From: Fodinibius salsisoli | GTDB taxonomy: Bacteria > Bacteroidota > Rhodothermia > Balneolales > Balneolaceae | Assembly: GCF_026229185.1 (NCBI RefSeq) | Contig: NZ_JAGGJA010000002.1 | Span: 372,001 to 436,000, forward strand | Length of the DNA stretch: 64,000 nucleotides | Reading direction: 5' to 3' | Shown here: positions 22,443 to 39,802 of the stretch, one piece after another | Layout: the number at the start of each line of letters is the position of its first letter | Numbering within the stretch: the stretch's first letter is position 1 | Program-made: the position numbers and the translations under genes | Notes under the pieces: generated by a model | Told to the model about the DNA's origin: nothing | Database searches by the model: none | What the model saw: the letters and a program-made list of their open reading frames with translations, nothing else

Positions 22443-22461
22443 AAGTGTATTTTTTACCCTT
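22443..22461 (-). promoter_or_regulatory. Candidate operator upstream of araB (AAGTGT-N7-ACACTT family, one mismatch)
   Basis: On the plus strand the site reads AAGTGTATTTTTTACCCTT; only one base of the right arm deviates from AAGTGT-N7-ACACTT. It lies 63-81 bp upstream of the araB start. It is grouped with the sites at 33777, 39262 and 39784. Confidence 0.5.
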
Positions 22462-22514
22462 TAAATTTTTGTGCAAAAAAATCCCTGCCTTGAAAAAGCA
22501 TGCAAAAACCTATC

Positions 22515-23219
22515 TTAAAGTTTTATGGGCTTAAAAACCAGGCTGTCTCCGTTATTTATCTTTGCCTGGTATTTATCTTTGTTAAATTTATAGAAATAAG
22601 CTCCTTTCTTGGAGTATTTCTTCTGTTTTTCATCCATCTTTTTCAGGACATCCATCGATAATATTCTCCGTCTGAAATTTCGCTTATCCAGCTCTGTCTC
22701 ATAGATCCCTTCATATAGAATCTGCAATTCAGGCATGGTAAACTTTTCGGGCAGTAGTTCAAAGCCAACCGGTTCATGAGAGGCCCGATATTTGAGACGA
22801 GATTTAGCAGCCTGTACCATTTCATTATGATCGAAAATAAGGTCTGGCAGGTCTTCTACCGAGAACCAACGGGCACCATATTGTTCCAATAGTTCCCGAT
22901 CGTGTTCGCGAATATTAATCAGTGCGTAATAGGCAATAGATACGGTTCGCTCTACCGGATCCCGGTCAACTTCTCCAAATCCATATAGCTGCTCCAAATA
23001 AACATTTTGCAAACCTGTAAGCTGATGCAGAATGCGATCTGCAGCCTCATCCAGGCTTTCTTCTCGTTTTAAAAAACCTCCCATAAGCGACCATTTCCCT
23101 TTTTCTGGCTCAAAATCCCGCTTAATCAAAAGCAATTTTAAACCTCGTCGATCAAATCCAAAAATGATACAATCGAGTGCTACAAGTATTCGGTCGTTAT
23201 TTAAATAATGATTTTGCAT
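22515..23219 (-). CDS. araR: Nudix-fold transcriptional regulator of arabinose utilisation (AraR/NrtR type)
   Basis: The 234-residue protein has an N-terminal Nudix domain and a C-terminal winged-helix region (about residues 150-234; EKFTMPELQILYEGIYETELDKRNFRRRIL). This is the architecture of NrtR-type regulators and of the Nudix-family AraR described in gut Bacteroides. The Nudix box at 47-70 (GGFLKREESLDEAADRILHQ...) has lost the catalytic REUxEE: the Glu positions are Ile, Gln and Leu. It should therefore bind a ligand (L-arabinose in the Bacteroides protein) rather than hydrolyse it. It sits between the GH51 gene and araB, the expected place for a local regulator. The DNA site it binds is not proven by sequence. 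Confidence 0.88.
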   Translation of the reverse strand: MQNHYLNNDRILVALDCIIFGFDRRGLKLLLIKRDFEPEKGKWSLMGGFLKREESLDEAADRILHQLTGLQNVYLEQLYGFGEVDRDPVERTVSIAYYALINIREHDRELLEQYGARWFSVEDLPDLIFDHNEMVQAAKSRLKYRASHEPVGFELLPEKFTMPELQILYEGIYETELDKRNFRRRILSMDVLKKMDEKQKKYSKKGAYFYKFNKDKYQAKINNGDSLVFKPIKL

Positions 23220-23240
23220 GCTACATACTTTTTTATAACT

Positions 23241-23265
23241 ATGGCAGATTTTACTAACCTGCCAT
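23241..23265 (-). promoter_or_regulatory. Inverted repeat between GH51 gene and araR
   Basis: Perfect arms ATGGCAG (23241-23247) and CTGCCAT (23259-23265) are separated by 11 bases, in the 61-bp gap between the GH51 stop and the araR start. No T-run follows on either strand, so it is not a standard terminator. It could be an operator or a processing hairpin within the operon. Confidence 0.4.
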
Positions 23266-23280
23266 GCTCAAATATACCGT

Positions 23281-24855
23281 TTATTTAATCTGTAAAACGA
23301 TAACGGATTTTGACGGCAAGCGCAATGTTAAGTTATTTCCATCTAATGTATAGTTATTAAACTCTTTGGGCGACACCCTCTCCGGGTTATCAAAGGTGTT
23401 GATGGCATCTACTTCATTTGCTGTAAGAACCCGGGCATTACTAACGGATCCAACCTCTAGTCCTCGGATGTCGACGGTCACTTCCTGCGATTGAGTTGCA
23501 TGAAGATTGGTGGCCGTTACATGAACTGCTCCCTCACTATTCTTGGATGCGGTGGCGCTAATAGCTGGGATACTCTCATCTCCAAATTCATAATTTTCGA
23601 CCTGTAAATCCAGGGGTAATAACATGGCATTATGATGGACGGTATAAAATTCAAACACATGAAAGGTCGGCGTTTTCAACATTTTTTCACCTTCTGTAAG
23701 CACCATGGCCTGCAGTACGTTTACCGTCTGAGCAATATTAGCCAGACGAACACGATCGCTGTGCTTATTCAAAATATCAAGTGAGGTTGAAGCGACCAAC
23801 GCATCCCGGATGGAGTTCTGTTGCTGCAGAAACCCTGGATTGCTTCCGGGCAGCGGATCGGTCCAAACGCCCCATTCATCTACCGCCAAGTTAATTCGTT
23901 TCTGTGGATCGTATTTATCCATAATGGTAGAATGCCGGGTCACGAATTCATCTAACCGAAGCCCCTGTCGAAGTCCCGAAAAATACATTTCTTCTCCAAA
24001 ATCCTGGGAAGGTCCTTTATTTCCCCAATCGCCGTTAGGAAGAGTATAATAGTGCAGGGAGATAGCATCCATATGATTGCCGGCATTTTTAACCACGGTC
24101 TCAGTCCAGTCGTAATTATCATCAGAAAACCCACTGGCAATTTTATAGAGGTCATTCCCGCTGTAATCCTTGGCAAAGGTGGCGTATCGACGATAAAGGT
24201 CAGAATAATAATCGGCTTTCATACTGCCGCCGCACCCCCAGCTTTCGTTACCAATCCCCCAGAACTTGACGTCCCAGGCTTCATCCTGACCGTTTTCACG
24301 GCGCAGATTAGCCAGCGTACTATTGCCGTCGTAGGTCATGTATTCAATCCAATTGGCCATCTCTCGAGGCGTTCCACTCCCTACATTAGCAGATATATAA
24401 GGTTCGGTATCCAACAGCTCCGTAAGTCGCATAAATCCGTGGATTCCAACGGCATTATTTTCTTCAACCATCCCCCAATGCGTGTTTATGCGTACGGGTC
24501 GATCCTCGCGGGGACCGATTCCGTCTCGCCAGTTATATTCATCAGCAAAACAGCCCCCGGGCCAGCGAAGGTTGGGAATCTCCAGTTCCCTGAGGGCTTT
24601 CAATACGTCGTTACGAAATCCATCGGTATTGGGGATGTCCGAATCCTCTCCAACCCAGAGTCCCCCGTAAACGCCGGTGCCTAAATGTTCAGAAAACTGA
24701 CCATAGATATGCTCATTAATTTTATTCTGAGGCTGGTCGGCATCGATGACCATGGTGTTTTGTGCCTGTAGTGGAATCCAGCTACTAATAGCCAGGATAA
24801 ATGCCAGGCATAAAACCCTCTTCGTAGTAAACGTATCGCTGCTGTACTGTGACAT
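23281..24855 (-). CDS. abfA: Exported GH51 alpha-L-arabinofuranosidase
   Basis: This releases terminal arabinofuranose from arabinan and arabinoxylan oligosaccharides. The 524-residue protein has an N-terminal signal (FTTKRVLCLAFILAISSWIPLQAQ, cleavage near residue 32), so it acts in the periplasm, whereas many GH51 enzymes are cytoplasmic. The (beta/alpha)8 domain carries LRWPGGCFADEYNWRDGIG (about 97-114), the acid/base Glu204 in GIGNESWGCGG and the nucleophile Glu327 in VDEWGVW. A C-terminal beta domain (about 430-524) ends SKSVIVLQIK. The start is 9 bp after the mutarotase stop, so they are co-transcribed. Confidence 0.94.
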   Translation of the reverse strand: MSQYSSDTFTTKRVLCLAFILAISSWIPLQAQNTMVIDADQPQNKINEHIYGQFSEHLGTGVYGGLWVGEDSDIPNTDGFRNDVLKALRELEIPNLRWPGGCFADEYNWRDGIGPREDRPVRINTHWGMVEENNAVGIHGFMRLTELLDTEPYISANVGSGTPREMANWIEYMTYDGNSTLANLRRENGQDEAWDVKFWGIGNESWGCGGSMKADYYSDLYRRYATFAKDYSGNDLYKIASGFSDDNYDWTETVVKNAGNHMDAISLHYYTLPNGDWGNKGPSQDFGEEMYFSGLRQGLRLDEFVTRHSTIMDKYDPQKRINLAVDEWGVWTDPLPGSNPGFLQQQNSIRDALVASTSLDILNKHSDRVRLANIAQTVNVLQAMVLTEGEKMLKTPTFHVFEFYTVHHNAMLLPLDLQVENYEFGDESIPAISATASKNSEGAVHVTATNLHATQSQEVTVDIRGLEVGSVSNARVLTANEVDAINTFDNPERVSPKEFNNYTLDGNNLTLRLPSKSVIVLQIK

Positions 24856-24864
24856 AATTTTTAG

Positions 24865-26058
24865 TTATCTGGTTGAGAATTGATAAATGGTTGAGGTGCT
24901 GTAGGTTTCCCCGGGCTCTAATATGGTTGATGGAAAATCAGCTTCGTTTGGAGCGTTGGGAAAATGTTGTGTTTCGAGACAAAATCCTGAGTGTTGCTCA
25001 TATGGAATGCCTTCTGAATTTTGGAGCGATCCATCGAGGAAATTTCCGGTGTAAAACTGAACGCCAGGCTCTGTAGTATATACTTTCATCTCACGTCCAC
25101 TTGCCGGAGAATAAACGGTAGCGGCAAGGAACATGGAACCATCGTCGGGTTGATTTAATACGAAATTGTGGTCATATCCTCTGCCATCCACCTGATCGAT
25201 ACGCTCGCCAATGCTGTGAAATTCTTTAAAGTCAAAGGGCGTTCCTTCTACGGAAGCAATTTCACCGGTAGGAATTAACTCCTCATCCACGGGGGTGTAC
25301 TGATCAGCATTCAGTTTCACCTGGTGGTCCAAGATGGTACTATCAGCATTGCCCGAAAGGTTAAAATAGCTGTGGTTCGTAAGGTTAACGGGCGTAGCTT
25401 CGGTGGTTGTAGCCTCATAGTCAATTTTCAACTCGTTGTCATTGGTCAGAGAATAAATGACCGTTACATCCAGCTGACCCGGATATCCTTCTTCCATATC
25501 CTCACTTACGTACGTCAGTTGCAGGGTACTATCGGGCGTAATTGAAGCATCCCAAAGAACGTCATCGAAGCCTACCTCACCGCCATGCAAATGATTGTTG
25601 CCATCATTTTTAGCCAGCTTATAAGTGGTCCCATTCAGCTCAAATTCACCATCCGCAATGCGATTTCCATATCGCCCGATGAGAGCCCCGAAATTAGGAT
25701 GTCCGCTTAAATATTTGTCCAGAGAGTCGAAACCCAGGGCTATATTATCCATATTCCCTTCATTATCGGGTGTTTTGATGGACGTTACGATACCACCAAA
25801 GTTCGTGATTTGGACTTTCATATTGTTACCGTTAGTCAAGGTATAAAGCTTGACGTCCCGACTATCTTCAAGCGTTCCAAAAGATTCTTCGCTTATACTT
25901 ATGGTATTGCTTTGTTCTTGTGCCTGTTTTTGCTGCTGTCCACTTTCAGTATCGTTACTGGCACAACCCCCGATTGCCAAGGCGATGAGTATACTCAATG
26001 CCGTGATCACCCACCCGGCATAACTGATATTTTGGTCGATCGTTAATAATTGTGTCAT
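24865..26058 (-). CDS. galM: Aldose 1-epimerase (mutarotase), lipoprotein
   Basis: This interconverts alpha and beta anomers of the sugars released outside the cytoplasm, matching enzyme products to the importer. The 397-residue protein begins with a membrane segment ending in a lipobox (ALAIGGCAS, Cys about 32). It then shows the mutarotase beta-sandwich: FGGIVTSIKTPD, ALIGRYGNRIADGEF, the catalytic His in NNHLHGG, NHSYFNLSG (second catalytic His) and the catalytic Glu near YEQHSGFCLETQHFPNAPN. It lies between GH43 and GH51 in the arabinan operon. Confidence 0.93.
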   Translation of the reverse strand: MTQLLTIDQNISYAGWVITALSILIALAIGGCASNDTESGQQQKQAQEQSNTISISEESFGTLEDSRDVKLYTLTNGNNMKVQITNFGGIVTSIKTPDNEGNMDNIALGFDSLDKYLSGHPNFGALIGRYGNRIADGEFELNGTTYKLAKNDGNNHLHGGEVGFDDVLWDASITPDSTLQLTYVSEDMEEGYPGQLDVTVIYSLTNDNELKIDYEATTTEATPVNLTNHSYFNLSGNADSTILDHQVKLNADQYTPVDEELIPTGEIASVEGTPFDFKEFHSIGERIDQVDGRGYDHNFVLNQPDDGSMFLAATVYSPASGREMKVYTTEPGVQFYTGNFLDGSLQNSEGIPYEQHSGFCLETQHFPNAPNEADFPSTILEPGETYSTSTIYQFSTR

Positions 26059-26180: not shown

Positions 26181-27785
26181 TTAATCACTTGTTTTCTTGC
26201 CCCATATCGAACGTCCTGAAGGCGTCAACCCGGCATACGTTATGGTTATTTTCCTGGGTATGTCTTCCCAATCCCAGGCGTAGTCTACACCTAACTCTTT
26301 GTCATTAACCGTCAGCGTTTGCGTTGATTCATCAAACGACCAGCTCCCCTCCAAGGCACCACCGAGCGTGTGATCTTCGTTAAAGAGGACCTCATAAGAA
26401 GTCTGTATTTGTTGATATCGATATCTCAACGTAATTTCTTCCCATCTACCTGTTATTTCCTCTTCGGTTATGGGCTCATTTGGCACCGCGGCATACCGTT
26501 CGGGAGCTACCACAGGCCAGCCGTCCTCGGTCCAGTAAAGCTCACGCACATGGCCCATCATTACTGCATTAGAAGCAGTGATACCCCCTACATTTTTCGG
26601 TAACCGTGCTTGGGATGAATAAAACCACTCACCGCTATCCGGATCTTGGAACACCGAGCCGTGCGCGAAGCCTACCCAGCCGTAATGTTCATCAAAGGCA
26701 TACGGATGGGTAATCATCGGCCAGGCTTCTGCTCCTTCGGTTACATTTTTGCCATCGATACCGTAATAGGGACCGGTTATATTTTTGGACCGGGCCACCC
26801 GGGTATTATAGGCAACCGATAGTTCATCATAAGCCAAAAACAGGTAGTAATAGCCCGTTTCTTCGTTATAGATAATTTCGGGTGCTTCGAGTCCTTGCCA
26901 CCGGTTAGTGTTCACATTCCCTCGCCCTGCTATCCGGGTTCCGTAATCCTCCAAGCCGTTTAATTTCAAAGGTTTTCCGGTCTCCGGATCAACTTCTACA
27001 GCAGCAATGCCTGAGTGCCACGATCCATAGACGAGCCAATGCTCGCCTTCGGGTGTAACCACATATGAGGGATCAATGGCATTATATTTAAAGTATGCAC
27101 TCCAGTCCGAGCTGCCCTGGCGATCGTAGGTTTCCTTACCGTCAGCTACCGAACTAATGACCATGCCTTTGTCTTCCCAATTATCGGATGACAAATCCGA
27201 AGATTCTGCGAGCCCAATAAACGCTCGCTCGGTCCATGAGGTATTAGGGTCGGAACCTACTATAGGGTTTGTAACGACTACACTGTAGTATAGGCGGTAC
27301 CTTCCATTTATTTTGGTAACATGCGGCGCCCAAAATCCATAATTGGGATCTTCGATGGGCGGCAAGGGTGGATCCATCTCAGCCCTCATGCTATTTAAGG
27401 TATCTTTGATCCACGGTTGTACCTCCGAAAAAGCGGCGCCCTGGTATTCCCAGTTCACTAAATCCTTAGACCGGCGGTAGGGATAATTTCCGTGCCCTGC
27501 ATGAACGTTACCGTAAGAGGCATTCGTCTGATACATATAGTAGTACTCGCCATCTTTTATAACAGTGGGATCGTGAACATTGGCCAGATTCCACTCCGAG
27601 CGATTCGACCAGGATGATAAGGGCGTGTAATCATCCGCATATTCCGGACCATCGAACGGGCTCTCCTCTTCCTGTTCTTGCTCTTCGTTAGCGTCGTCCC
27701 CACCATTGACACCGGTGCTGTCAGAGCAAGCCACAACAAAGCCAAGCATCCCAAAAAGAAGAAGAATAGAGACTGAGAACTTCAT
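26181..27785 (-). CDS. GH43-family endo-arabinanase-like lipoprotein
   Basis: This is a probable endo-alpha-1,5-L-arabinanase at the cell surface. The lipoprotein signal ends at VVACSDS (Cys20), followed by an acidic linker rich in Glu/Asp (25-45). The five-bladed propeller of GH43 shows the general base Asp72 (VHDPTVIKDGEYY), Asp238 (NAIDPSYVV) and the catalytic acid Glu300 (GLEAPEIIYN), all in the right order. A C-terminal beta domain (about residues 440-534; ITGRWEEITLRY..., SWSFDESTQTLTVN) resembles the C-terminal domain attached to extracellular arabinanases. It is preceded by susC2/susD2 and the DUF3823-like gene. Confidence 0.9.
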   Translation of the reverse strand: MKFSVSILLLFGMLGFVVACSDSTGVNGGDDANEEQEQEEESPFDGPEYADDYTPLSSWSNRSEWNLANVHDPTVIKDGEYYYMYQTNASYGNVHAGHGNYPYRRSKDLVNWEYQGAAFSEVQPWIKDTLNSMRAEMDPPLPPIEDPNYGFWAPHVTKINGRYRLYYSVVVTNPIVGSDPNTSWTERAFIGLAESSDLSSDNWEDKGMVISSVADGKETYDRQGSSDWSAYFKYNAIDPSYVVTPEGEHWLVYGSWHSGIAAVEVDPETGKPLKLNGLEDYGTRIAGRGNVNTNRWQGLEAPEIIYNEETGYYYLFLAYDELSVAYNTRVARSKNITGPYYGIDGKNVTEGAEAWPMITHPYAFDEHYGWVGFAHGSVFQDPDSGEWFYSSQARLPKNVGGITASNAVMMGHVRELYWTEDGWPVVAPERYAAVPNEPITEEEITGRWEEITLRYRYQQIQTSYEVLFNEDHTLGGALEGSWSFDESTQTLTVNDKELGVDYAWDWEDIPRKITITYAGLTPSGRSIWGKKTSD

Positions 27786-27857: not shown

Positions 27858-28562
27858 TTATAGTTGCAGCTTATAAGACTTAGAGTACAAGGCATCTTCC
27901 TTACCCTCAATTTCCACACAGATGCGGGCATACACATAATCCCGGTTTGATAACTCTTCGGGCAATTGAGATAAGGTTATATCCATCGTATTGGAACCAT
28001 TCGTATTTATTTCGATCTCTTCCTGGAGGTGATTCCAGAAAAATGAGTTATTCTGAATACTGGTGAACTTCCCGGTCCCAATAAATAAGGTCACAAATGT
28101 AATGGGCTGTGAGGTATTGACCTCTTCCAGGTCAAAATCAGCTACAATCGAATTGCCCTGTAACCCGATATTCTCACTGGTTATTTTATAATAAGGTTCT
28201 ACCTGGAAGTTCATTTGCTTGTTACCACTGATTTCGAATTCGGTGGTATCCGAACTGGGAACCCACGGTCCATCGCCAATCAGCTCGGTTAATTTATAGG
28301 TACCTCCAAAAAGTGTGGAAGAAAACGAACCGTCCTGGTTCACTCTGAGAGGTATCTTTTCATAATCCTTATATCCCTCTTCCCAAATCTCCAGTTGTAC
28401 GGCTCCGTTACGTACCCGAATGGTATCACCTTCGTGGACTACAGCCCCCTCTAAGGTCGATTGAGGCTTATCGTAGTTATCGTATTCGGTAATACCACAA
28501 CCGGCAACGGTGGCAAGTAATGCCCCAAAAACTAATGATGTTATATACGTTGAATACTTCAT
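27858..28562 (-). CDS. DUF3823-like lipoprotein next to SusD (arabinan PUL)
   Basis: This is probably a surface glycan-binding accessory protein of the SusCD complex. The 234-residue protein has a lipobox (LATVAGCGITEYDNYDKP, Cys about 22) followed by two beta-rich domains. The first (about 35-120; LEGAVVHEGDTIRVRNGAVQLEIWEEG, FSSTLFGGTYKLTEL) resembles the carboxypeptidase-regulatory-like fold of DUF3823 proteins, which are typically encoded right after SusD in arabinan and pectin loci. It lies 29 bp after susD2 and 72 bp before the GH43 gene. The family name rests on recognition from memory; the lipoprotein nature is clear. Confidence 0.7.
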   Translation of the reverse strand: MKYSTYITSLVFGALLATVAGCGITEYDNYDKPQSTLEGAVVHEGDTIRVRNGAVQLEIWEEGYKDYEKIPLRVNQDGSFSSTLFGGTYKLTELIGDGPWVPSSDTTEFEISGNKQMNFQVEPYYKITSENIGLQGNSIVADFDLEEVNTSQPITFVTLFIGTGKFTSIQNNSFFWNHLQEEIEINTNGSNTMDITLSQLPEELSNRDYVYARICVEIEGKEDALYSKSYKLQL

Positions 28563-28591: not shown

Positions 28592-30526
28592 TTAGTGGAA
28601 TGGATTCCGTATCAGCTCCGGATTGTTGTTGATAGCGCCATCCGGAATACGTGCGTAGTAGTTTCCCATCTGGAACCATCGTGCATTGACAAAGCTGGGC
28701 GCTTGCGGTCCAATTTTGTCAAATACATACTTTCCGTGCATGGGTGATCCCGGCCGGTAGACACGATAGGGGAAAAGGGCTGCAACATTCGCTGTAGGGT
28801 TGCTGTCATCGCCGTCCCAAACGACATGGGCTTGCCTCCACCTTATAAGATCCCACAGGCGGTGCCCTTCAAAAGCCAGTTCAATACGGCGTTCGTTCAT
28901 GATCGTCTCAAAATCAATGGTAGCTGCACTGAGCAGTCCCGACTCTTCAAAACCGGCACGCTCACGAAGTACATTAATATAATCAGCAGCCTCGGCCGCC
29001 GTTGCCCCGCCCCCAAGCTCACTAAGCTGATAGGTTGCCTCAGCAGCATTCAGATACATCTCAGAAAGACGCATGCGTACCCACCAGGTATCACTCTGGT
29101 CACCACGCGTACTGGCGCCCGTCGTATTATCAACAAATTTACGCAGATAAAAGCCAGAACTACTGATATTCTGGATAGTCCGGTGAGGACCTCCGCTTGC
29201 CGTTAGGGCCCAGTCAACTTCAGGACCACTTTCGGTTCCGCTGAACTGTGACCCAAGGGAACTACCCTCCATCGTTTCATATGAAGAGCCGTTCCAGATT
29301 TTAACACCCGCCTGCATCGGGATATCCTGCCCGCGGAAACTTTCTCCAGGAACAATTACGGTGCCATCTAAACGACCGTCTTTTCCTTCAAAGAGATCCC
29401 CTGCATTATCGTAATAGATGTAATCTCCACTTCCATCCTGGGTCTGTAACTCTCCGGAACGACCGTCAGTGTAGGGATAGGCTTCCACCAATCCGAGGCC
29501 AGGTGTAATGGATGAAGAACTTAAATTATCTTCCCGCACCGGTCGGGCGATGTTTTCATAGGTAAAAAAGTGCCGGCGATCAGCTGAAGCAAGAAAGTCT
29601 TCAGCAAACATCACCTCATTATTTCCATCTTTAACCGTAACGGCCTGATAGAAATTCTGCCCGGGATCACCAGGTGTTGCATTATGCAAAGAGTAAGGAC
29701 TATTCTGAATAACCTCCTCGGCGGCATCTAACGCCTTTTGATAGTACTCCTCAGCTTTTGCTCCCTGAATACCTACGATGCGGCCTCCGTTCTCATTCTC
29801 CAGTGTAATAGGATTCGACATTTGGCTATTATGATAAGCAACAGACCCAGCATAAAGCATCGCACGGCTTTTAAGCCCAAGTGCCGTGTATTTATTGGCC
29901 CGGGTCTGGCTTCCGGCATTATGTCCTAAGCTATCTTTGATGGCATCAAGCTCACTGGCTATAAAATCATATATCTCGGCTTCTGTACTTCTTGGTATAT
30001 GAAATTCAGATGCGTTTTCAGGATTATATTCCATCGTAGAGGTGACCAATGGCACGCCCCCCATCCGTTTGACCATCTGAAAATAGACCCAAGCCCGAAC
30101 GAACCGGAATTCTGCCTTAAATTGTCCTCGCTGCTGCTCGGTCAAACCGGTAGAAAACTGGTCGATATTTTCGATCGCTTTGTTGATGTCATAAATCAAA
30201 TCGTAATCCCAGAGACTCCACCAGTCGGTGCCAAAGGTTTCGATATTGAGTAAGTCATCATTGTTTTCCTGGCCCGACCACATGGCATCGGTCATCAGGG
30301 CGAACTCTGTCCAACCGCCGCCCTGTCCGTCAGTCAGGGAATGAAAGCGGGGCAGGCGATCATAATAGTTTGACAATACACCGCGAATCAGTTCGGGGTC
30401 GTTCCAAACCTGATCTTCGGTTATAATAGTCTCCGGATCCTGGGAGAGCCATTCGCTATTATCGCATCCTGCTATTAAACTAAACAGCAGTACAAGCAAT
30501 AAGGTAGATCTTTTAAATATTTTCAT
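28592..30526 (-). CDS. SusD/RagB-family lipoprotein (arabinan PUL, susD2)
   Basis: This is the surface glycan-binding partner of SusC2. The 644-residue protein has lipobox LIAGCDNSEWLSQDPETIITED (Cys about 21) and the SusD signatures GQFKAEFRFVRAWVYFQMVKRMGGVPLV, RMRLSEMYLNAAEATYQLSE, NERRIELAFEGHRLWDLIRWRQ and a C-terminal YARIPDGAINNNPELIRNPF. It starts 37 bp after the SusC2 stop. Length is on the long side for SusD. Confidence 0.95.
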   Translation of the reverse strand: MKIFKRSTLLLVLLFSLIAGCDNSEWLSQDPETIITEDQVWNDPELIRGVLSNYYDRLPRFHSLTDGQGGGWTEFALMTDAMWSGQENNDDLLNIETFGTDWWSLWDYDLIYDINKAIENIDQFSTGLTEQQRGQFKAEFRFVRAWVYFQMVKRMGGVPLVTSTMEYNPENASEFHIPRSTEAEIYDFIASELDAIKDSLGHNAGSQTRANKYTALGLKSRAMLYAGSVAYHNSQMSNPITLENENGGRIVGIQGAKAEEYYQKALDAAEEVIQNSPYSLHNATPGDPGQNFYQAVTVKDGNNEVMFAEDFLASADRRHFFTYENIARPVREDNLSSSSITPGLGLVEAYPYTDGRSGELQTQDGSGDYIYYDNAGDLFEGKDGRLDGTVIVPGESFRGQDIPMQAGVKIWNGSSYETMEGSSLGSQFSGTESGPEVDWALTASGGPHRTIQNISSSGFYLRKFVDNTTGASTRGDQSDTWWVRMRLSEMYLNAAEATYQLSELGGGATAAEAADYINVLRERAGFEESGLLSAATIDFETIMNERRIELAFEGHRLWDLIRWRQAHVVWDGDDSNPTANVAALFPYRVYRPGSPMHGKYVFDKIGPQAPSFVNARWFQMGNYYARIPDGAINNNPELIRNPFH

Positions 30527-30563: not shown

Positions 30564-33500
30564 TTAAAGTGAGATATTGAAGCCAATACTGTACAAGCTC
30601 TGACGAGGATAGACCAAGCCGTTTTCTGCTGAAATCTCCGGATCAATTTCATAGTCCTTCATATTATCGAAAGAGAATATATTGGTTCCCCGGACATACA
30701 CATTCAGAGAATTCACTCCTACTTTTGATAAAAGACTTTTCGGCAGATCGTACCCTACTTGCAGGTTCTGCAGGCGCAAATACCAGATATTATGGGTCCA
30801 ATAGGTGTTAGATTCATAATTATAGTGGTTATAGTTTGCCCCCCTGTTAGCGGGATAGTCGCCAGCGATCCACTCACTACTGGGATCGAAAGGATCGGCC
30901 CGGTGCCAGCGATCAGTCAACATAAACTCTGGTGAGTTTCCGTTGTTCTGGAAGAAATAGCGAAGCTCCCAGTTACGGGTATAACTCTGCATGGCGGCAC
31001 CGGCAAAGTTAAAACTTAAACTCGCCCCCTTGTAGGAAAACATTCCATTTAAACCAAAACTGGTATATGGATTCCAACCCTGGGCATAACCGATGGGACG
31101 CTGATCCAGCCCGGTGATAATACCATCACCATTTACATCTTTATAGATAAAGTCGCCGGGCATAGCCGTCGTGTTGCTTTGCCCATCCATTTCTACAGGA
31201 TAATTATCGATCTGCTCCTGCGATTGGAAACGGCCAATAACCTGATACCCCCAAGTAATAGCTGACCAGCGACCAATCTCTGAATTACGATACTCGTCCC
31301 AGGAGTTACCTGCCCGGAAGTTATAGTCGGTTTGTTGCCGCCAGCGAGATATGGTAGCATTGGCGCCTACACGATAGCTAATATCGGTTCCCACTTGTCC
31401 CTGGTAGGAAACCGAACCTTCAACGCCCCGTGTCACATCGGAATTCAGATTTTGTATCGGTGTATTATACCCCAGCTCTGAGGGAATAGCTTCGTCTTCC
31501 GGCGTTCCGGGCAATCCATCGCGCTCACGTTCAAACACATCTATAGTTGCCGAAAGCCGATCTTCAAAAAATGAAACATCTAGACCGATATTTTTACTTA
31601 TGGCTGTAATCCAGCTAAAGTTTGTTATTGGACGATTTCTCGGTCCTACACCTGCATAATATTGGCCATCCAGGACAGAACTTCCGGAATCCCCTCCAAA
31701 GTTATAGCCCGCGAGGTAGCTATAGGGACTAATTAGATAATTGCCTCCCGAATCGGTTTCACTACCCGTACGACCATAAGAAGCCCGCAGCTTTAAATTG
31801 GTAATGGTACTTCCAACCGCCTCCTGGAAGAAATCCTCTTCAGAAATTCTCCATCCGGCCGAAACGCCCGGAAAAAAGCCCCAGCGACTTTCTGATGGAA
31901 AGAGGAAGGAACCGTCATAACGACCAACAAACTCAACAAGATACTTTTCATCGAAGTTATAGTTCACCCGACCAACATAACCAGCATGGGCTGACTTACC
32001 GATATCATGAACCAAGATATCCTGGTTATCGAAACTCATGATATTTACATAGTTATTATCTGGCACAGTGTGCACCCGCTGCTCATCCCCCCGGTAGTCC
32101 GATCGCTCATAAGCAGCAAGAGCCGCGATACTGTGTTTGCCAAAATCAGCTTCATAGTTCGCCTGAAACTGGAAGAAGCGGTTAATCTCGTTTCTCCATC
32201 GGCGTTCTCTCCAGGGATTATCATTACCCTGCACCGCATTATATTCATCGGTTTCTTCGTTATAGACATAACCATTGTAGGTATATTCAAAACCGTCAAA
32301 ATCCCATGCTCCGTATCCGTAGGAACCGGTTCCCTTAAGACTCAGTCCAAAGTCAAAATCATATTCTGCGTATAAGTTTACCTTAGCCTCGCGCCAAATA
32401 TCATCAATCCACCCGGTTACATCTTCGGTATACGTAGCCGGATTTACATTAATGTTGTGAACATCGCCGTTTACATAGTTGGGATTATCATTAGCATAGG
32501 GCGATTCGGTAGGCCACATTGTGGAAATACTCAGGAAAGGATTAAAATAGTCATCCAGCCCCGGGACCCCTACCTGTTGGCGATTCTCGATGCGACCACT
32601 TATCTGAGTTCCAATTGTCAGTCGGTCAGAAATGGTACCTTCGATATTCGCCTGAATGTTATTCCGGCTGAAGCTATAATCATCTATAATTGCTTGTTGC
32701 CCCAGACGAGTGGCCGATAAATAATAGCTTATCGATTCCGACCCACCGGAAACACTGGCACTTAGCTGGTTTTGGGGAACACTTGGCTCCATGACAATAT
32801 CATAGTAGTCATAGCTTTTATAATCATCGCCGTTGCGCCATTCCCTCAACTGCTCAGAAGAATTTATCCCCAGATAGTTGGGATTTTCACCCCGATTCTG
32901 TTGTGCATACAGCTTGCCTCGTACAAACTGGTAAGCATTAGCAGGTTGTGGATAACGCGTAAACGTTTGCCAACCGTAATAGCCGTCAATATTTATTTCC
33001 GTCTGTTCTCCATACCCTCCATCTTTCGTTTCCACAAGTACAACACCGCTTGAGGCCCTAATTCCGTAAACGGCTGCTGAGGCATCTTTCAGGACTGAGA
33101 TACTTTCGATATCTCCCTGCCCCAACTGTGCAAAGTCTCCTTCTGAGGAAGGTACCCCGTCAATAACATAGAGAGGGTCGCCCATATTCCGGATTTCAAT
33201 CTGTGGAGACGAACCAGGGCGGGCATCTGCTTGCCGGGCCGTTACCCCCTGCACTCTACCTACCAAAGCATCTCCTGTAGTCACCGAGGGCGTTTCTTCC
33301 AGATCGCCAAACTCAACAGAGCTAATGGATCCGGTCACACTTTGTTCGCTTTGTTCTCCATATCCAACAACTACAAGGTCTTCGCCAACCAAAGCCTGTG
33401 GTTGAAGTGTAATATCGATCTCTGTTCTTCCGTTTATCGGTATTTCTTGCGTTTGATATCCTACAAATGAAAAGACCAGTGTATCTGACAGAGAAGAAAC

Positions 33501-33704
33501 CTCCAATTGGTACATTCCATCCGCACCAGTTGATGTCCCCTGGGAAGTACCTTTCACAAGAATGTTAACACCGGGCAGCGACTCGGATGTACTACCATCG
33601 GTCACTGTTCCCGAAACTTCCTGTTGTGCAAATACAGCTCCTGTTGATAAACCCCAGACGGCTACTACCAACAGCAGGCATTTCAGTTGTAAATATGATT
33701 TCAT
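30564..33704 (-). CDS. SusC/RagA-family TonB-dependent transporter (arabinan PUL, susC2)
   Basis: This outer-membrane importer would take up arabinan oligosaccharides. The 1046-residue protein has a signal peptide ending near STGAVFAQQ, a carboxypeptidase-regulatory-like domain (about 28-115; GTVTDGSTSESLPGVNILVKG, VFSFVGYQTQEIPINGR), a plug with VVVGYGEQSEQSVTGSISSV and SISVLKDASAAVYGIRASSG, and a barrel ending YSIGFNISL. There is no STN domain, so it is not expected to signal through FecR. About 75% of the N-terminal 90 mature residues match SusC3, and the promoter regions of the two genes are also alike. It leads the operon susC2-susD2-DUF3823-GH43-galM-GH51-araR. Confidence 0.95.
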   Translation of the reverse strand: MKSYLQLKCLLLVVAVWGLSTGAVFAQQEVSGTVTDGSTSESLPGVNILVKGTSQGTSTGADGMYQLEVSSLSDTLVFSFVGYQTQEIPINGRTEIDITLQPQALVGEDLVVVGYGEQSEQSVTGSISSVEFGDLEETPSVTTGDALVGRVQGVTARQADARPGSSPQIEIRNMGDPLYVIDGVPSSEGDFAQLGQGDIESISVLKDASAAVYGIRASSGVVLVETKDGGYGEQTEINIDGYYGWQTFTRYPQPANAYQFVRGKLYAQQNRGENPNYLGINSSEQLREWRNGDDYKSYDYYDIVMEPSVPQNQLSASVSGGSESISYYLSATRLGQQAIIDDYSFSRNNIQANIEGTISDRLTIGTQISGRIENRQQVGVPGLDDYFNPFLSISTMWPTESPYANDNPNYVNGDVHNINVNPATYTEDVTGWIDDIWREAKVNLYAEYDFDFGLSLKGTGSYGYGAWDFDGFEYTYNGYVYNEETDEYNAVQGNDNPWRERRWRNEINRFFQFQANYEADFGKHSIAALAAYERSDYRGDEQRVHTVPDNNYVNIMSFDNQDILVHDIGKSAHAGYVGRVNYNFDEKYLVEFVGRYDGSFLFPSESRWGFFPGVSAGWRISEEDFFQEAVGSTITNLKLRASYGRTGSETDSGGNYLISPYSYLAGYNFGGDSGSSVLDGQYYAGVGPRNRPITNFSWITAISKNIGLDVSFFEDRLSATIDVFERERDGLPGTPEDEAIPSELGYNTPIQNLNSDVTRGVEGSVSYQGQVGTDISYRVGANATISRWRQQTDYNFRAGNSWDEYRNSEIGRWSAITWGYQVIGRFQSQEQIDNYPVEMDGQSNTTAMPGDFIYKDVNGDGIITGLDQRPIGYAQGWNPYTSFGLNGMFSYKGASLSFNFAGAAMQSYTRNWELRYFFQNNGNSPEFMLTDRWHRADPFDPSSEWIAGDYPANRGANYNHYNYESNTYWTHNIWYLRLQNLQVGYDLPKSLLSKVGVNSLNVYVRGTNIFSFDNMKDYEIDPEISAENGLVYPRQSLYSIGFNISL

Positions 33705-33746
33705 AGAACCCCATTTTTGTGTGTTTAGATATTATTTTTTCCTACC

Positions 33747-33795
33747 TGAATTGGCTATTCAATTCAAAATATTACAAAGTGTTTTTTATACACTT
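33747..33795 (-). promoter_or_regulatory. Regulatory module upstream of susC2: two dyads
   Basis: Two inverted repeats lie before susC2: TGAATTG-N6-CAATTCA (33747-33766) and AAGTGT-N7-ACACTT (33777-33795, AAGTGTTTTTTATACACTT). The second lies 73 bp from the start codon. Both have counterparts in the same order and at the same 30-bp offset before susC3 (39232/39262), while the bases between them differ. This is good evidence for a conserved promoter/operator module. Confidence 0.7.
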
Positions 33796-34176
33796 CTTAT
33801 GTTAAAACATTCTGTAAAACTGATGCAAATAATTGCAAGAAATTTATTCCTTCCGATATACTTGCTTACAAGAAAAGTACCTATACACCTCAAAAAGACA
33901 AACACATAAATGCTATAAATAACTATATATCAATTATTTACGCATTTCTACTATTGTATATAAAAAGAGATAATTTTTTTTAAAAAAACCTAAATAACCA
34001 AAATATTACCCGTAGATTTATTTCAGTTAAACTTATTTTTTCGGTAAAACACTTATTAATTGTTCGAAACACACTTAAAAATGTGGATACCTGACGCCTA
34101 AATCCTCTCTCAAGATTTCCTCTATATAAGGCACTCTTCTTGAGAAGTCTTGCTACTCCAGCACTCACCAATAAGA
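33796..34176. other. AT-rich intergenic region between susD3 and susC2
   Basis: No gene is visible; short open frames lack family features. The stretch is AT-rich and holds the far upstream part of the susC2 promoter region and the region beyond the susD3 terminator-like hairpin. I see no further clear dyads. Confidence 0.4.
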
Positions 34177-34301: not shown

Positions 34302-36074
34302 TTAGTATCCCGGGTTCTGTTCTAAGTTATTGTTCAGGTCCCGCTCGCCCGATGGGATCGGCCACAAATAGTCTCGCGGGGCCTCAAACGACCGCACGTG
34401 TTGCCCTGGTACAGGCTCCATGTCGCTACCGCTGGCGATATTAATCCCAAGAGTGCTACCGTTTAGCACTTCCTCAGCAGTCGCCCACCGGCGGATATCC
34501 GCCAAGTGCAGGCCTTCCCAGGCCAGCTCGATCGTCCGCTCATTGCGGATGAATTCAATAGCCTCCTCCTGCGACATTGTGGTGACATCGACAGGCAGGG
34601 GAATGTCCACCCGGTCACGAATCTCTTCAAGCACCGTTTGCACTGACGCGTCCAACTCACCCAGCTCAGCCTTCGCCTCTGCATACATCAGCAGAATATC
34701 GGCATACCGCATCTTTATGAAATTGAGACCACTGTTAGTTGGAGACGAAGCGTCCTGTGGATCTACATACTTCATGGCGGTATAGCCGGTGTAGGTGTTA
34801 TTGTAATCCGTTAGCAGGATCCTATTGCCGGTCGGACTACAGTAGCCATCTGGCGCTCCACTTTCGCATGACGGATATGAGTTATAAACAATTCCATTGA
34901 ATTCAGCACCTGGAAACAGGACTGTTCCATAGAACCGTGGATCTCGATTTGCATACATACCGAGCGTCTGTACCATCGGTTCACCGTTGCTATAGGTGAT
35001 CTCCGGCGGAGAATCATCGTACATCGGCGATTCGTCAATGGGCAGACCATCCTCCATGGGGAATTTATCAACCAGCTCCCGCGTCGGTGCAACATTAACC
35101 TCGCTGCCCATAGTTTTAGGTGCAAAATCGGCCCAGGCCGGCCAGCCATTCTGGCCAGCAACCTTTTGGTAATCGAAAATAACTTCCTCGCTTTGCTCAC
35201 CTGCGTAAGTGAAAAGATCCCGAAAGTTGGGATGCAGGCTATACTCATTGAGATTCATCACTTCTTGAGCCATATCGGCAGCAGCGCTATATAACTCGTT
35301 AGCACGACCTTGGTTGCCTTCCTGGTACTCTTGCCAGCTCGCCTCGTACAAGGCGGTCCGAGCCTGGTAACTCAAGGCAGCTCCCTGGGTAGCACGACCG
35401 TAATCGGAGGACGCTAAATCGGAGGCAGAAGGCAGCAAACCTGCTGCTTCCGACAGGTCTGAGGTAATACGGTTATACACCTCTTCCCGCGAAGCACGGC
35501 TCACGCTGCGCGCCTCTTCCACAGTCGGAACGCTTGTGAAGATTGGAACCCCACCATACATCCACAGCAGTTCGTGATAAAAATATCCGCGCAAAAACAG
35601 GGCCTCACCGCGAATCCGATTAGCGGTTTCCTGTGAAAGCACCTCTCCACCTACCGCTTCGAGCTGTGCGAGAATCTCATTGGAGCGACTTATTCCGGTA
35701 TAATTCTGGCTCCAAATACCACCTGACCAGCCGGACAGAGCATTGGCACGCCCCATTACGTACTCGTGCTGACGTCTCCAATCAGCGTGGGAGTAACCGA
35801 TCTCTGTGGTACCGTCAAAGTACATTGGGTCATCACCCTGCCCCATCATCTGGCTATATGCACCATTAAGGGCGGTGTTAAAATCACGCTCGTTGGTCCA
35901 GAAGGTTGCTGATGATACCCTGTCTGTCGGTTCTGTAGTCAGGAAGCCCTCATCACACCCCGTGGTTCCAAGAGCGATACATAGAAGCAGTATGCCTGCA
36001 AGCAATACATTCGTTGTCTTCGTTATCTTGTAAGTCATAATCTTGGTTTTTTTATCAATCATAGTCTTGGTCAT
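34302..36074 (-). CDS. SusD/RagB-family lipoprotein (susD3)
   Basis: This is the binding partner of SusC3. The 590-residue reading starts directly after the SusC3 stop (TAA/ATG abut at 36074). Its signal is long: an ATG at 36038 would give MTYKITKTTNVLLAGILLLCIALGTTGC with a better-shaped lipoprotein leader, so the true start is uncertain. SusD landmarks are EGFLTTEPTDRVSSATFW, RGEALFLRGYFYHELLWMYGGVPIF, KMRYADILLMYAEAKAELGE, RNERTIELAWEGLHLADIRRW and a C-terminal DYLWPIPSGERDLNNNLEQNPGY. Substrate is unknown; the neighbourhood suggests arabinan or another pectic polymer. Confidence 0.93.
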   Translation of the reverse strand: MTKTMIDKKTKIMTYKITKTTNVLLAGILLLCIALGTTGCDEGFLTTEPTDRVSSATFWTNERDFNTALNGAYSQMMGQGDDPMYFDGTTEIGYSHADWRRQHEYVMGRANALSGWSGGIWSQNYTGISRSNEILAQLEAVGGEVLSQETANRIRGEALFLRGYFYHELLWMYGGVPIFTSVPTVEEARSVSRASREEVYNRITSDLSEAAGLLPSASDLASSDYGRATQGAALSYQARTALYEASWQEYQEGNQGRANELYSAAADMAQEVMNLNEYSLHPNFRDLFTYAGEQSEEVIFDYQKVAGQNGWPAWADFAPKTMGSEVNVAPTRELVDKFPMEDGLPIDESPMYDDSPPEITYSNGEPMVQTLGMYANRDPRFYGTVLFPGAEFNGIVYNSYPSCESGAPDGYCSPTGNRILLTDYNNTYTGYTAMKYVDPQDASSPTNSGLNFIKMRYADILLMYAEAKAELGELDASVQTVLEEIRDRVDIPLPVDVTTMSQEEAIEFIRNERTIELAWEGLHLADIRRWATAEEVLNGSTLGINIASGSDMEPVPGQHVRSFEAPRDYLWPIPSGERDLNNNLEQNPGY

Positions 36075-39000
36075 TTAGAAGCTAATGTTGGCGCCTATAC
36101 TGATCACCCTCGTCTGTGGAGTGTAATCACCGGTCGTCCATGGATACTCAGGATCCAGACCGATACCCAAATTATTTGTCATCCATAGATTTTTGCCGGT
36201 TGCATACAGTCGCAGGCGTTGAATCCCTATACGGCTGACAATATCCTGGGGTAGTGTATAGCCGAGTTGAACATTACGCAGCTTCATAAAACTCCCGTCC
36301 AAGATCCACCAGGAGTTTGTCGTGTAGTAATTCCGGTTCACGTTGGAGTAGTATGCGGGGTGCCGTGCGTCTTGGTTATCGGGCCTCCAGTAGTCTTTAT
36401 GCCACTCCGACGTATAGTTTTCCCAAACCGGGCCCTGCGCAAAGCCGAGGCCCAGGTACTGATCCCGCTTACCTACACCTTGAAGGAGCGCACTGAAATC
36501 AAAGTTTCGCCAACCTGCGTTAACATTCACGCCATAGATATAATGGGGGTTGGGATTACCGATCACTTTACGATCCGCTTCATTGATAACCCCGTCGTCA
36601 TTCTGGTCCACATACATAAGGTCGCCCAAACGGGTTTCTTCTCCCGGAACATGTGCACCGTAGCTATCAATCTGTTCGTATGAGTCGAATAAACCTGCAA
36701 CCTCAAGACCGTACCATGCATTGACGGGCGAACCTTCCTGAATCACTCTGCCGCCGAGGTTTCCACCTTCAATATACGGACCGGTTTCGACCAGGTCGAT
36801 AACTTCGTTCCGGTTATCGGAGAGATTGACGTTGATACCGTAGCTGACTTCACCGATATTATCCTGCCAGCCGACCGACACCTCCCAACCTTTGTTTTCG
36901 ACAATACCCCCGTTCTGGTAGGGCGCGTTTAGGCCGACCATATCGGGGACTGAAAGGGCCAGGAGGATATCTTCTGTGCGCCGCTCGTAGATATCACCCG
37001 TTACACTCAGGCGGTTATCCCAAAATGCGGCGTCGAACCCGATATTGGTAACTATCGTTGTTTCCCACGAAAGCTCTTCGTTGACAAGATCCGTAGCAGC
37101 ACCACCTACCGACTGTGCACTACTGGCGTTGCCCAGATGATACGGAGTACTCAGATTGATGGAAGAATAGTAAGAGTACAGTGGCACATTCTGGTTACCC
37201 AACTCGCCCCAGGATCCGCGCAGCTTAAACTCATCTACCCAGTCCACGTTAAAGAACGGCTCCTCGGAAACCCGCCAGCCGAGCGAAAACGAGGGAAAGA
37301 AACCATATCTGTGCCCTTCAGCAAATCGGCTTGATCCGTCATAGCGAGCGTTGAATTCGAACAGGTAACGACCCATCAGCTCGTAGTTGAGCCGCCCAAA
37401 CACTGAGCGCAGTGCCCAACTATTACCGTACCCCCGTGTTCCGTCGTTCGTTTCGTTACCCAGGTCGAGTTGGCGTAGTTCGTTGTTATAAAACTGATCT
37501 CGCCAGGCCCGAAACTCCTCAAAGTTGGCGTCGGTCTGTTCATATCCCACTACACCGGAAATATTATTATTTTCATTAAACGAATAGTCATAGTCGATCA
37601 TAGCACGGAGTGTCGTTTGCTTATCCGTATAGGTTCGGTTTTCACCGAAACTGGGTCCCCAGTAGTATGCGTCGTCGGGATACTCTTCAATAAGGTTTGG
37701 GTCGGTCACAAACCGTTCCCAATCCATGGCACCATAGTCAAAAGAAGCCAGGGTCTGTATTTCTGCCCATGAAGCTATTCGATAGTTCAAGCGACCGGTG
37801 ACAGTACCCTCCCAGAACACCCGCTGCTGGTTACCACTGACCTCGGCGGAAGCCAATGAACTACGGCCAAACAAGTTTGTGCCGTATGTGCCATCGGAAT
37901 ACCGGGTTCTTATTGTGGGCGGCGTATCGTGGACGATATAAAAATTCGCTGCCCATTCCTCAGCAGGAAGAATATCCCAACTACGATTCGCTGACAAGTC
38001 CACCCCGCCTGATATCTTATCAGTCAGATTAAAATCGGTGTTCAGACGTACGCCATACCGGTCGTGCCCCGTATTTGCCATCAATCCATCTTCTTCCAGG
38101 TAATTGAGTGAGAGCGAGTAGCGGGCTACCTCGCTTCCGCCAGCTATACTCAGGTTATGATCCTGCATTCGTGCCGGATTGAAAATTTCGTCCACCAATT
38201 CATTATCCGGATAAGCGTCGGGGTCCGTTCCCGCGATGGTATTCTGGATATATTCATCTGTGTATCGTGGCTGGTAACTGTCATAAGATTCACACTCACT
38301 AACCGCATTATTGGGATCGCGACCGTCGAGGCACCAATTCATAAGATTCTCCCGGGCCACGTTTGCAAGCCGCATGTGCGTCTCAGTGTCTACACGTTCC
38401 GGCCAGGCTGTACGGCTCTGTGTTCCTATGTATCCGTTATACGTAACCTGCAGGTCGCCGGCCGTTCCTCGCTTCGTGGTGACCAAGATTACGCCATTTG
38501 CTGCGCGCGAGCCGTAAATGGCCGCCGAGGCTGCGTCTTTCAGAACGGAAATATTCTCTACATCATTTATATCAATGTTGGAGAGATTCCCTTCGACTCC
38601 ATCGATCAGCACCAGCGGTCGCGAGGCGCCTGCGCCGCCAGTGTCATCACCCCGGCCCAGAGTACCTTGTCCCCTGACCAGTAAATTTAGCTGGTTGTGA
38701 CCTGGATGATCTCCACCGTCCAGCAGCTGCAAGCCCGGTGCCATTCCCTGCAGCGCATGTGTCACCGTAGGAACGGGTACTTCAGACATTTCAGCAGTCG
38801 AGACGGACGCCACCGAGCCCGTTAGGTTCACCTTTTCCTGCTCGCCATATCCTACAACAACCACATCTTCTCCCATCAAAGCTTGTGGCTGTAGGCCAAC
38901 ATCAAGTTCACTCCTGCCCTCAATGGCTATCTCCTGTGTCTGATAGCCAACAAAAGAAAAAACCAGCGTATCCGTAGTGGATGCCTCTAATTCGTAATAA

Positions 39001-39188
39001 CCATCAATATTAGTTGATGCCCCCTGCGAAGTCCCCTTCACAAGAATATTTACTCCAGGTAATGTTTCAGATGTACTCGCATCTGTAACTGTACCTGATA
39101 CTTGTTGTTGTGCAAGTACAGCTGTTGATGACAAGCCTAAAATGCATATCATCAATACCATATATTGTAGCTGTAGATATGTTCTCAT
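36075..39188 (-). CDS. SusC/RagA-family TonB-dependent transporter (susC3)
   Basis: This is an outer-membrane glycan importer of 1037 residues. It has a signal peptide ending STAVLAQQ, a carboxypeptidase-regulatory-like domain (about 28-112), a plug with VVVVGYGEQEKVNLTGSVASV and ISVLKDAASAAIYGSRAANG, a barrel and a C-terminal VISIGANISF. Like SusC2 it lacks an STN domain. The plug has an insertion (RGDDTGGAGASRPLVLIDG) that SusC2 lacks. The similarity of its N-terminal domain and promoter to susC2, with diverged barrel and SusD partner, suggests an old duplication or recruitment under common control. It is first in a two-gene operon with susD3. Confidence 0.95.
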   Translation of the reverse strand: MRTYLQLQYMVLMICILGLSSTAVLAQQQVSGTVTDASTSETLPGVNILVKGTSQGASTNIDGYYELEASTTDTLVFSFVGYQTQEIAIEGRSELDVGLQPQALMGEDVVVVGYGEQEKVNLTGSVASVSTAEMSEVPVPTVTHALQGMAPGLQLLDGGDHPGHNQLNLLVRGQGTLGRGDDTGGAGASRPLVLIDGVEGNLSNIDINDVENISVLKDAASAAIYGSRAANGVILVTTKRGTAGDLQVTYNGYIGTQSRTAWPERVDTETHMRLANVARENLMNWCLDGRDPNNAVSECESYDSYQPRYTDEYIQNTIAGTDPDAYPDNELVDEIFNPARMQDHNLSIAGGSEVARYSLSLNYLEEDGLMANTGHDRYGVRLNTDFNLTDKISGGVDLSANRSWDILPAEEWAANFYIVHDTPPTIRTRYSDGTYGTNLFGRSSLASAEVSGNQQRVFWEGTVTGRLNYRIASWAEIQTLASFDYGAMDWERFVTDPNLIEEYPDDAYYWGPSFGENRTYTDKQTTLRAMIDYDYSFNENNNISGVVGYEQTDANFEEFRAWRDQFYNNELRQLDLGNETNDGTRGYGNSWALRSVFGRLNYELMGRYLFEFNARYDGSSRFAEGHRYGFFPSFSLGWRVSEEPFFNVDWVDEFKLRGSWGELGNQNVPLYSYYSSINLSTPYHLGNASSAQSVGGAATDLVNEELSWETTIVTNIGFDAAFWDNRLSVTGDIYERRTEDILLALSVPDMVGLNAPYQNGGIVENKGWEVSVGWQDNIGEVSYGINVNLSDNRNEVIDLVETGPYIEGGNLGGRVIQEGSPVNAWYGLEVAGLFDSYEQIDSYGAHVPGEETRLGDLMYVDQNDDGVINEADRKVIGNPNPHYIYGVNVNAGWRNFDFSALLQGVGKRDQYLGLGFAQGPVWENYTSEWHKDYWRPDNQDARHPAYYSNVNRNYYTTNSWWILDGSFMKLRNVQLGYTLPQDIVSRIGIQRLRLYATGKNLWMTNNLGIGLDPEYPWTTGDYTPQTRVISIGANISF

Positions 39189-39230
39189 AACACCCCATCT
39201 TTTATATTTAAGTATTTTTGTTATCCCTAT

Positions 39231-39280
39231 TTGAATTGGCGATCCAATTCAAAATGTGTCTAAGTGTTTTATATACACTT
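39231..39280 (-). promoter_or_regulatory. Regulatory module upstream of susC3: two dyads
   Basis: TTGAATTGG-CGAT-CCAATTCAA (39231-39252) is a perfect inverted repeat with 9-bp arms. AAGTGT-N7-ACACTT (39262-39280, AAGTGTTTTATATACACTT) follows, 74 bp from the start codon. Order, spacing and distance to the start match the module before susC2. Confidence 0.72.
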
Positions 39281-39783
39281 TTTATTTTTCAAAAAATCCC
39301 GGTTTTATGCAAATAATTTTGAAAATATTTTTAATATAACTCATTTACTTCATTTGCTCATCGTAACAAGGGTTGCTAAAAAAAGACCTATCATTCTATT
39401 CTCCTGCCTATCATGCAATTATGCCAAATAAAAACATGAACTTATTATCAAGTTTTTTTGACCTCGCTTTTCTTGATAAGCAAAAATAAATACGATTTAG
39501 TCTCCTTGGATACTACTCTATTTTTAAAAATTGAATTTAATTGTTCGTATAACACTTAATGGCATCTTGGTAATTTTGCACTCAATTATTGCTACTGCTT
39601 TATTTAAATTTTCATATCTCTATCTCCTTTATAATTGACTTCATCGTTTCTCAGTAATTATATCCCATAATACCTCTTCTTGATATTGGACTTTTATCGA
39701 GCAAAGTCCTCTCCAAGGCTTTGTCAATTTATTTCCGAAATAACCCAATTTTTTTTTGCAACTTTCAAAAATATTCTCTCTTT
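39281..39783. other. AT-rich divergent intergenic region between susC3 and the ThuA-fusion gene
   Basis: About 500 bases without a credible gene, between two divergent transcription units that each carry the AAGTGT-type dyad close to their start. The middle is AT-rich and I see no further clear repeats in it. Confidence 0.4.
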
Positions 39784-39802
39784 TAGTGTATTTGCTACAC
39801 TT
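39784..39802 (+). promoter_or_regulatory. Candidate operator upstream of the ThuA-fusion gene
   Basis: TAGTGTATTTGCTACACTT has inner arms AGTGTA/TACACT and the same 17-bp core AGTGT-N7-ACACT as the dyads before susC2 and susC3. It lies 52 bp upstream of the start codon. Confidence 0.55.

Follow-up and report, generated by a model that had tools for sequence, protein, structure and literature searches.

We examined a 64,000-nt window (the whole stretch of DNA analysed here) of the Fodinibius salsisoli genome, in which a 19-bp dyad, AAGTGT-N7-ACACTT, recurs in an arabinose and arabinan locus and before a neighbouring cassette headed by a gene for a ThuA fusion protein. This dyad is very probably the operator of AraR, a Nudix and winged-helix protein encoded at 22515–23219, which would repress two susCD units, araBDA and the ThuA cassette until relieved by L-arabinose; the cassette would thus belong to the AraR regulon. 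The operator type, the regulator and the mechanism are already known from publications, and the new part is the cassette, comprising the ThuA fusion, an epimerase-like protein and a Gfo/Idh-type protein, with a predicted AraR operator of its own. No report of a link between ThuA and arabinose was found in the open-licence papers of PubMed Central (PMC) that were consulted, although one may nevertheless exist. The proposal would extend the AraR operator and regulator beyond Bacteroidota as NCBI defines it, outline a nearly complete regulon for a halophile, with nine sites in 4.85 Mb, and connect a widespread cassette (ThuA, DUF7133 propeller-type domain, cupredoxin and Gfo/Idh) with a particular sugar; its substrate would be narrowed to arabinose and its glycosides because the predicted repressor senses a single sugar.

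Predicted operator dyads and the AraR protein

To place the dyads relative to genes, we called the longest open reading frames (ORFs) of at least 80 amino acids without using annotation, and counted as a site any dyad with at most one mismatch, unless stated otherwise. The window holds six sites (Table 1) against 0.10 expected, and none of 100 shuffles reached six. The earlier note had counted four; these were all recovered, with 33777 and 39262 exact and 39784 and 22443 one mismatch away, but its total was too low, having overlooked 34058–34076 and 39539–39557. The whole genome (4,847,776 bases) contains nine sites, six of them clustered in 17 kb, and its only two exact copies both lie in the window. 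All nine are intergenic, two short ORFs that overlap sites antisense to araB and susC2 (22006–22464 and 33562–33909, both on the + strand) having been dropped. Two sites each precede susC2, susC3 and GH43 genes, and one each araB and the ThuA fusion, which accounts for eight. Of the three that fall outside the window, two are found 14 bp and 48 bp before the GH43 genes, which are only suggestive as arabinose targets since GH43 includes xylan-active enzymes, and one is found 77 bp before an extracytoplasmic function (ECF) sigma gene (G000:C1:70603, one mismatch). No site precedes the window's own sigma gene (15714–16328), as had been claimed before. A reversed control pattern matches the genome 15 times against nine for the dyad, so the genome total is not enriched, and with three mismatches allowed the window count is chance-like and uninformative (22 against 24 expected); the unusual feature of the dyads is their placement, not their genome-wide number.

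The protein encoded within the locus matches the domain profiles NUDIX (44.4 bits), NrtR_WHD (89.7 bits) and AraR_C (39.3 bits), all above their cut-offs, and aligns without gaps over residues 1–218 to 5bs6, the AraR of Bacteroides thetaiotaomicron (BtAraR; 272.9 bits, E 2.2e-80), of which it is an ortholog. BtAraR binds arabinose via R34, R86 and H131 (PMC4666351); all three are present in the window protein, and V92 is replaced by T. Among six DNA contacts, K179, R180, N181 and K204 are identical, and K184R and R205K are conservative. The gel-shift probe of the BT0365 promoter carries AAGTGTAAAAAAGACACTT, with a single BtAraR operator, AAGTGT-AAAAAAG-ACACTT (PMC4666351), which the window dyad matches letter for letter in arms and spacing. 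Contacts in the BtAraR crystal structure define the GTGT motif, and L-arabinose releases the protein from DNA (PMC4666351). According to PMC5061871, AraR represses araM about 30-fold in B. thetaiotaomicron in vivo, and arabinose relieves this repression. The earlier note had put forward the Nudix protein inside the locus as a candidate for one regulator shared by araBDA, the ThuA cassette and arabinan import. This stands as the best reading, given the orthology to BtAraR, the identical operator and the exact sites that track araR in the genus (see below), with the correction that regulator and operator type had already been published. The proteins named AraR in PMC5507952 are LysR-type Halomonas proteins, unrelated to the Nudix AraR.

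The AraR (BT0354) regulon of Bacteroides and Prevotella (PMC4666351, PMC5061871, PMC3878776) shares with the proposed one the regulator family, the operator arms and spacing, and a core of targets, namely ara genes, a GH43 arabinanase, an arabinofuranosidase and SusCD. However, the present host is a member of Balneolota, whereas PMC4666351 gives AraR orthologs in Bacteroidetes only, and the main text of that paper lacks the term 'thua', while here a ThuA-fusion cassette carries the dyad. The arabinan locus of B. thetaiotaomicron is also under BT0366, a further difference from the window, where a scan of 18 proteins (16554–48250) revealed no hybrid two-component regulator; AraR may therefore act alone on the polysaccharide utilisation loci (PULs) of the window.

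We infer that, without arabinose, an AraR dimer would most likely occupy each operator and block the two susCD units, araBDA and the cassette of ThuA fusion, TIM-barrel and Gfo/Idh genes, and that cytoplasmic L-arabinose would release it. If TTGCAT or TTGCAA is the -35 element, the operator would overlie the transcription start, as suits a repressor. TTGCAT occurs about 30 bp before the dyad in eight of eight aligned susC or araM upstream regions of the genus, and TTGCAA takes a similar position before the ThuA dyad (Table 1). The paired dyads at susC2, susC3 and the susC3 of F. roseus could permit looping: in F. roseus, too, a second dyad lies 279 bp upstream of the susC3 operator, and in other genomes the distance is 130, 98 or 50 bp, or there is no second dyad. 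The AATTGT-arm variant seen in the second dyads of the window recurs at intergenic sites in araR-bearing genomes.

Sites and araR across Fodinibius

The genus set consisted of 12 Fodinibius genomes, including that of F. salsisoli (G000) and F. roseus DSM 21986 (G003), a species that NCBI assigns to Balneolota. AraR orthologs (81–88% identity) are encoded in seven of these genomes, F. salsisoli included, and in all seven araBDA, abf and the epimerase gene adjoin araR. Exact dyads are present in each of the seven (14 sites altogether) and in none of the five araR-negative genomes, where for G010 and G011 this rests on their first-ranked match being inexact. Intergenic positions account for 36 of the 56 placed sites in araR genomes versus 1 of 21 in araR-negative ones (Fisher p 1.5e-6), counts that contain orthologous sites and so are not independent, and that leave out of placement 2 of 58 sites in the former group (both in G009) and 11 of 32 in the latter. 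By genome, intergenic over placed sites are 9/9 in G000, 5/10 in G001, 6/10 in G003, 5/8 in G004, 5/8 in G006, 3/5 in G008 and 3/6 in G009. One G001 site (C2:1493918) that the ORF caller had put inside an ORF was entered as intergenic, given that the orthologous gene of G006 begins, with its GH43 domain, 26 bp after it; by the caller alone the total is 35 of 56.

The sites in araR genomes stand upstream of susC, araB, the ThuA fusion, the araM-abf-araR unit (in G008) and, at three locations with loose linkage or none, GH43 genes. Some do not fit this pattern, being found in F. roseus before a DeoR-type regulator and before another SusC gene, and in G006 far from any start. Both checks suggested by the earlier note point the same way: in F. 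salsisoli all sites are intergenic, and in close relatives they recur at orthologous promoters. An exact intergenic dyad in G008 (C5; L070 9856–9874) lies near an integrase-like gene, as judged by eye, with no arabinose gene visible nearby.

The putative ThuA operator: conservation and alternatives

Of the 11 other genomes of the genus, G003 and G004 alone encode close orthologs of the fusion (75–79%), and the dyad stands before all three Fodinibius fusion genes, at 51 bp in the window and at 38 and 55 bp in G003 and G004, respectively. Outside the genus, 80 loci with related fusions were fetched, one of which was F. roseus again, leaving 79 loci (1,545,820 bases). These contain six sites, all intergenic and at most 200 bp upstream of the fusion gene, compared with five matches of the reversed pattern, all in genes. 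The sites are exact in Muricauda sp. CAU 1633 and Marixanthotalea marina, and one mismatch away in three Confluentibacter species and a Flavobacteriales metagenome-assembled genome (MAG). Five of the six genomes encode AraR (58–63% identity), either on a different contig or at a distance of half a megabase; none was found in the sixth, the 2.5-Mb MAG, and no araR lies within the fetched flank at any fusion locus of the site-bearing Flavobacteriaceae clade.

The pattern AAGTGT-N7-ACACTW, chosen in the knowledge that A is the last base of four of the six ThuA sites, occurs 21 times in these six genomes versus at most three times for the reversed control. Seven occurrences belong to ThuA fusions (two in G014, whose second fusion gene has its own exact site), five to araB and/or araR, three to GH95-type genes, two to SusC-like genes (268 and 347 bp away), and one each to an SSF symporter, a transketolase and a molybdo-hydroxylase pair, with one unassigned; as the genomes were chosen for site-bearing ThuA, the ThuA share is not independent, but the other 14 occurrences are. 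The hydroxylase pair, of 2Fe-2S/molybdopterin type, is found in Muricauda sp. CAU 1633 (G012, L193 1501–1519) and is possibly another oxidative enzyme in the AraR regulon of that organism.

We inferred a tree of 88 fusion proteins (FastTree, Shimodaira–Hasegawa (SH)-like support, no bootstrap). Site-bearing fusions fall in two separate clades, one made up of the three Fodinibius genes and the other a Flavobacteriaceae clade in which all seven rows carry a site, and supported branches force at least two changes in site presence, which fits two recruitments or one old recruitment followed by many losses. A sample of 149 Flavobacteriaceae genomes contained 11 true orthologs (>300 bits), with a site in three, none in seven and one cut. 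The link between AraR and ThuA appears to be lineage-restricted, because ten genomes outside the genus (G018, G020, G021, G022, G026, G027, G029, G156, G040 and G030) combine AraR (at least 54% identity) with a ThuA fusion that has no site. In G020 and G021 a two-mismatch sequence occupies the position upstream of the fusion; five Cyclobacterium loci likewise share a two-mismatch sequence, which was left out of the count. Membership of the ThuA cassette in the arabinan regulon, offered conditionally in the earlier note, gains support from the sites at three Fodinibius and seven Flavobacteriaceae fusion genes.

The ten genomes just listed weigh against AraR control of the cassette, as does the theoretical possibility that the 39784 site serves the divergent susC3. 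Further points count against the proposal as a whole. A sigma-70 scan at the ThuA site gave no promoter excess (5 versus 4.4 in shuffles) and did not detect TTGCAA. The araB site is degenerate, with two mismatches in G004, G006 and G009 and no counterpart in G008, and the window AraR differs from BtAraR by K184 to R, R205 to K, S163 to P and A208 to Y. The in-genus counts, as noted, are not independent. Finally, loss of araR in B. thetaiotaomicron shifts the timing of arabinan genes, not their steady level, as reported in PMC5061871.

Among alternative explanations, the least improbable is that the 39784 site is auxiliary to susC3, for example as a loop partner, leaving the ThuA cassette outside AraR control. 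The divergent arrangement of ThuA and susC3 would allow this, as would the second sites farther upstream of susC2 and susC3, but we consider it unlikely. The 39784 site is 51 bp upstream of ThuA, compared with 595 bp to the start of susC3. An MFS-type gene of 528 amino acids separates ThuA from susC3 in G004, so the dyad there, about 2.5 kb from susC3, is best assigned to ThuA; and the Flavobacteriaceae sites precede ThuA at loci whose flanks lack araR, including the separate site of the second G014 fusion. Still less probable is that a different regulator binds the dyad. The genome does encode a second NrtR_WHD protein (G000:C41), likely a relative of XylR (BT0791), an NrtR-family regulator that likewise combines Nudix and winged-helix domains; it is 33% identical to AraR. 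However, its recognition-helix core reads NRSSF versus DKRNF in AraR, on which ground we rejected it as the binder, and the exact sites follow the distribution of AraR orthologs within the genus, cluster at araR loci and have the sequence of the published AraR operator. That the dyads are chance matches to an AT-rich palindrome has next to no likelihood, for although the genome total falls below its reversed control and the three-mismatch window count is at expectation, this is refuted by the shuffles and the araR-negative congeners, with exact sites confined to araR genomes, six of nine sites in 17 kb of 4.85 Mb and nine of nine intergenic.

Possible role of the cassette and neighbouring genes

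The fusion protein combines ThuA, DUF7133/TIGR02604, HEAT and cupredoxin regions; its N-terminus has a lipoprotein-like signal, as judged by eye, its C-terminus is an auracyanin-like cupredoxin (82.5 bits to 2aan), and no CxxCH haem motif is found in it. The TIM-barrel protein is nearest to ketose 3-epimerases (7cj4, 145.7 bits; L-ribulose 3-epimerase 3vyl, 105.5 bits) and scores below the cut-off of that family (NF051856, 180.2 bits versus 300). A His of 7cj4, which we take to bind metal, is replaced by Gln, and Gln is found in 35 of 49 homologs, the other 14 being unmatched by the pattern. This protein is not essential to the cassette, since F. roseus has the cassette without it. The Gfo/Idh-type protein carries CTVPMA where the family usually has a catalytic EKP; CT(V/I)PMA is conserved in 57 of 67 homologs (10 unmatched by the pattern), and its chemistry may therefore differ from that of the family.

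Predicted control by AraR suggests that the most likely role of the cassette lies in the use of arabinose or arabinan, its substrate being arabinose itself, an arabinoside or a by-product formed when arabinan is degraded. More tentatively, and with considerable doubt, it might form an additional, oxidative pathway for arabinose or its glycosides, in which an envelope lipoprotein would oxidise the sugar and pass electrons to its own blue-copper domain, the cytoplasmic Gfo/Idh and epimerase-like enzymes would process the keto product, and AraR would have gained control of the pathway on at least two independent occasions, one in Balneolota and one in Flavobacteriaceae. ThuA, Gfo/Idh and TIM-barrel proteins of these three types are encoded side by side in the sugar-oxidation cassettes of many Bacteroidota loci. 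Unlike the window cassette, most of the fetched loci lack the AraR dyad, and the type found beside sigma, SusCD and DUF3823 genes in Dyadobacter and relatives is presumably regulated otherwise.

Table 1. Sites and genes of the arabinose/arabinan locus and the ThuA cassette, in positions of the window
Position	Strand	Feature	Evidence
16554–18302	-	sodium:solute symporter, araP-like by position	profile match
18548–19948	-	araA, L-arabinose isomerase	profile match
19978–20685	-	araD, L-ribulose-5-phosphate 4-epimerase	profile match
20707–22380	-	araB, ribulokinase	profile match
22443–22461	.	putative AraR operator, one mismatch, between araR and araB, 62 bp before araB	pattern scan
22515–23219	-	araR, predicted Nudix and winged-helix repressor, BtAraR ortholog	domain profiles, 5bs6 alignment
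23281–24855	-	alpha-L-arabinofuranosidase, Alpha-L-AF_C domain; probably GH51	profile match
24865–26058	-	aldose 1-epimerase, araM-like	profile match
26181–27785	-	GH43 arabinan endo-1,5-alpha-L-arabinosidase (NF049889, 671 bits versus cut-off 600)	profile match
27858–28562	-	DUF3823 protein	profile match
28592–30526	-	SusD-like protein, PUL 2	profile match
30564–33704	-	SusC-like transporter susC2	profile match
33777–33795	.	putative AraR operator, exact dyad, 72 bp before susC2	pattern scan
34058–34076	.	second dyad, one mismatch (AATTGT arm), 281 bp upstream of putative susC2 operator	pattern scan
34302–36074	-	SusD-like protein after susC3	profile match
36075–39188	-	SusC-like transporter susC3	profile match
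39262–39280	.	putative AraR operator, exact dyad, 73 bp before susC3	pattern scan
39539–39557	.	second dyad, one mismatch (AATTGT arm), 277 bp upstream of putative susC3 operator	pattern scan
39756–39761	+	TTGCAA, possible -35 element, 28 bp before ThuA dyad	alignment by eye; same block in other two ThuA upstream regions
39784–39802	.	putative AraR operator, one mismatch, 51 bp before ThuA-fusion gene	pattern scan, relatives
39854–42853	+	ThuA - DUF7133/TIGR02604 - HEAT - cupredoxin fusion	profile matches
43019–43870	+	TIM-barrel protein, ketose-3-epimerase-like	profile and structure-sequence matches
43887–45014	+	Gfo/Idh-type oxidoreductase	profile match

Between the predicted AraR operator and the start of susC3 lies a further palindrome, TTTGAATTGG-N4-CCAATTCAAA (39230–39253, exact), which recurs before susC2 with three mismatches (33745–33768). 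It is expected 0 times in shuffles, was not seen in the other aligned susC upstream regions, and could be a hairpin in the 5' untranslated region or the site of another protein. Downstream of the ThuA cassette, a BlaI/BlaR1-type pair is encoded at 45918–48250, the BlaR-like protein carrying TonB_C and CarboxypepD_reg domains.

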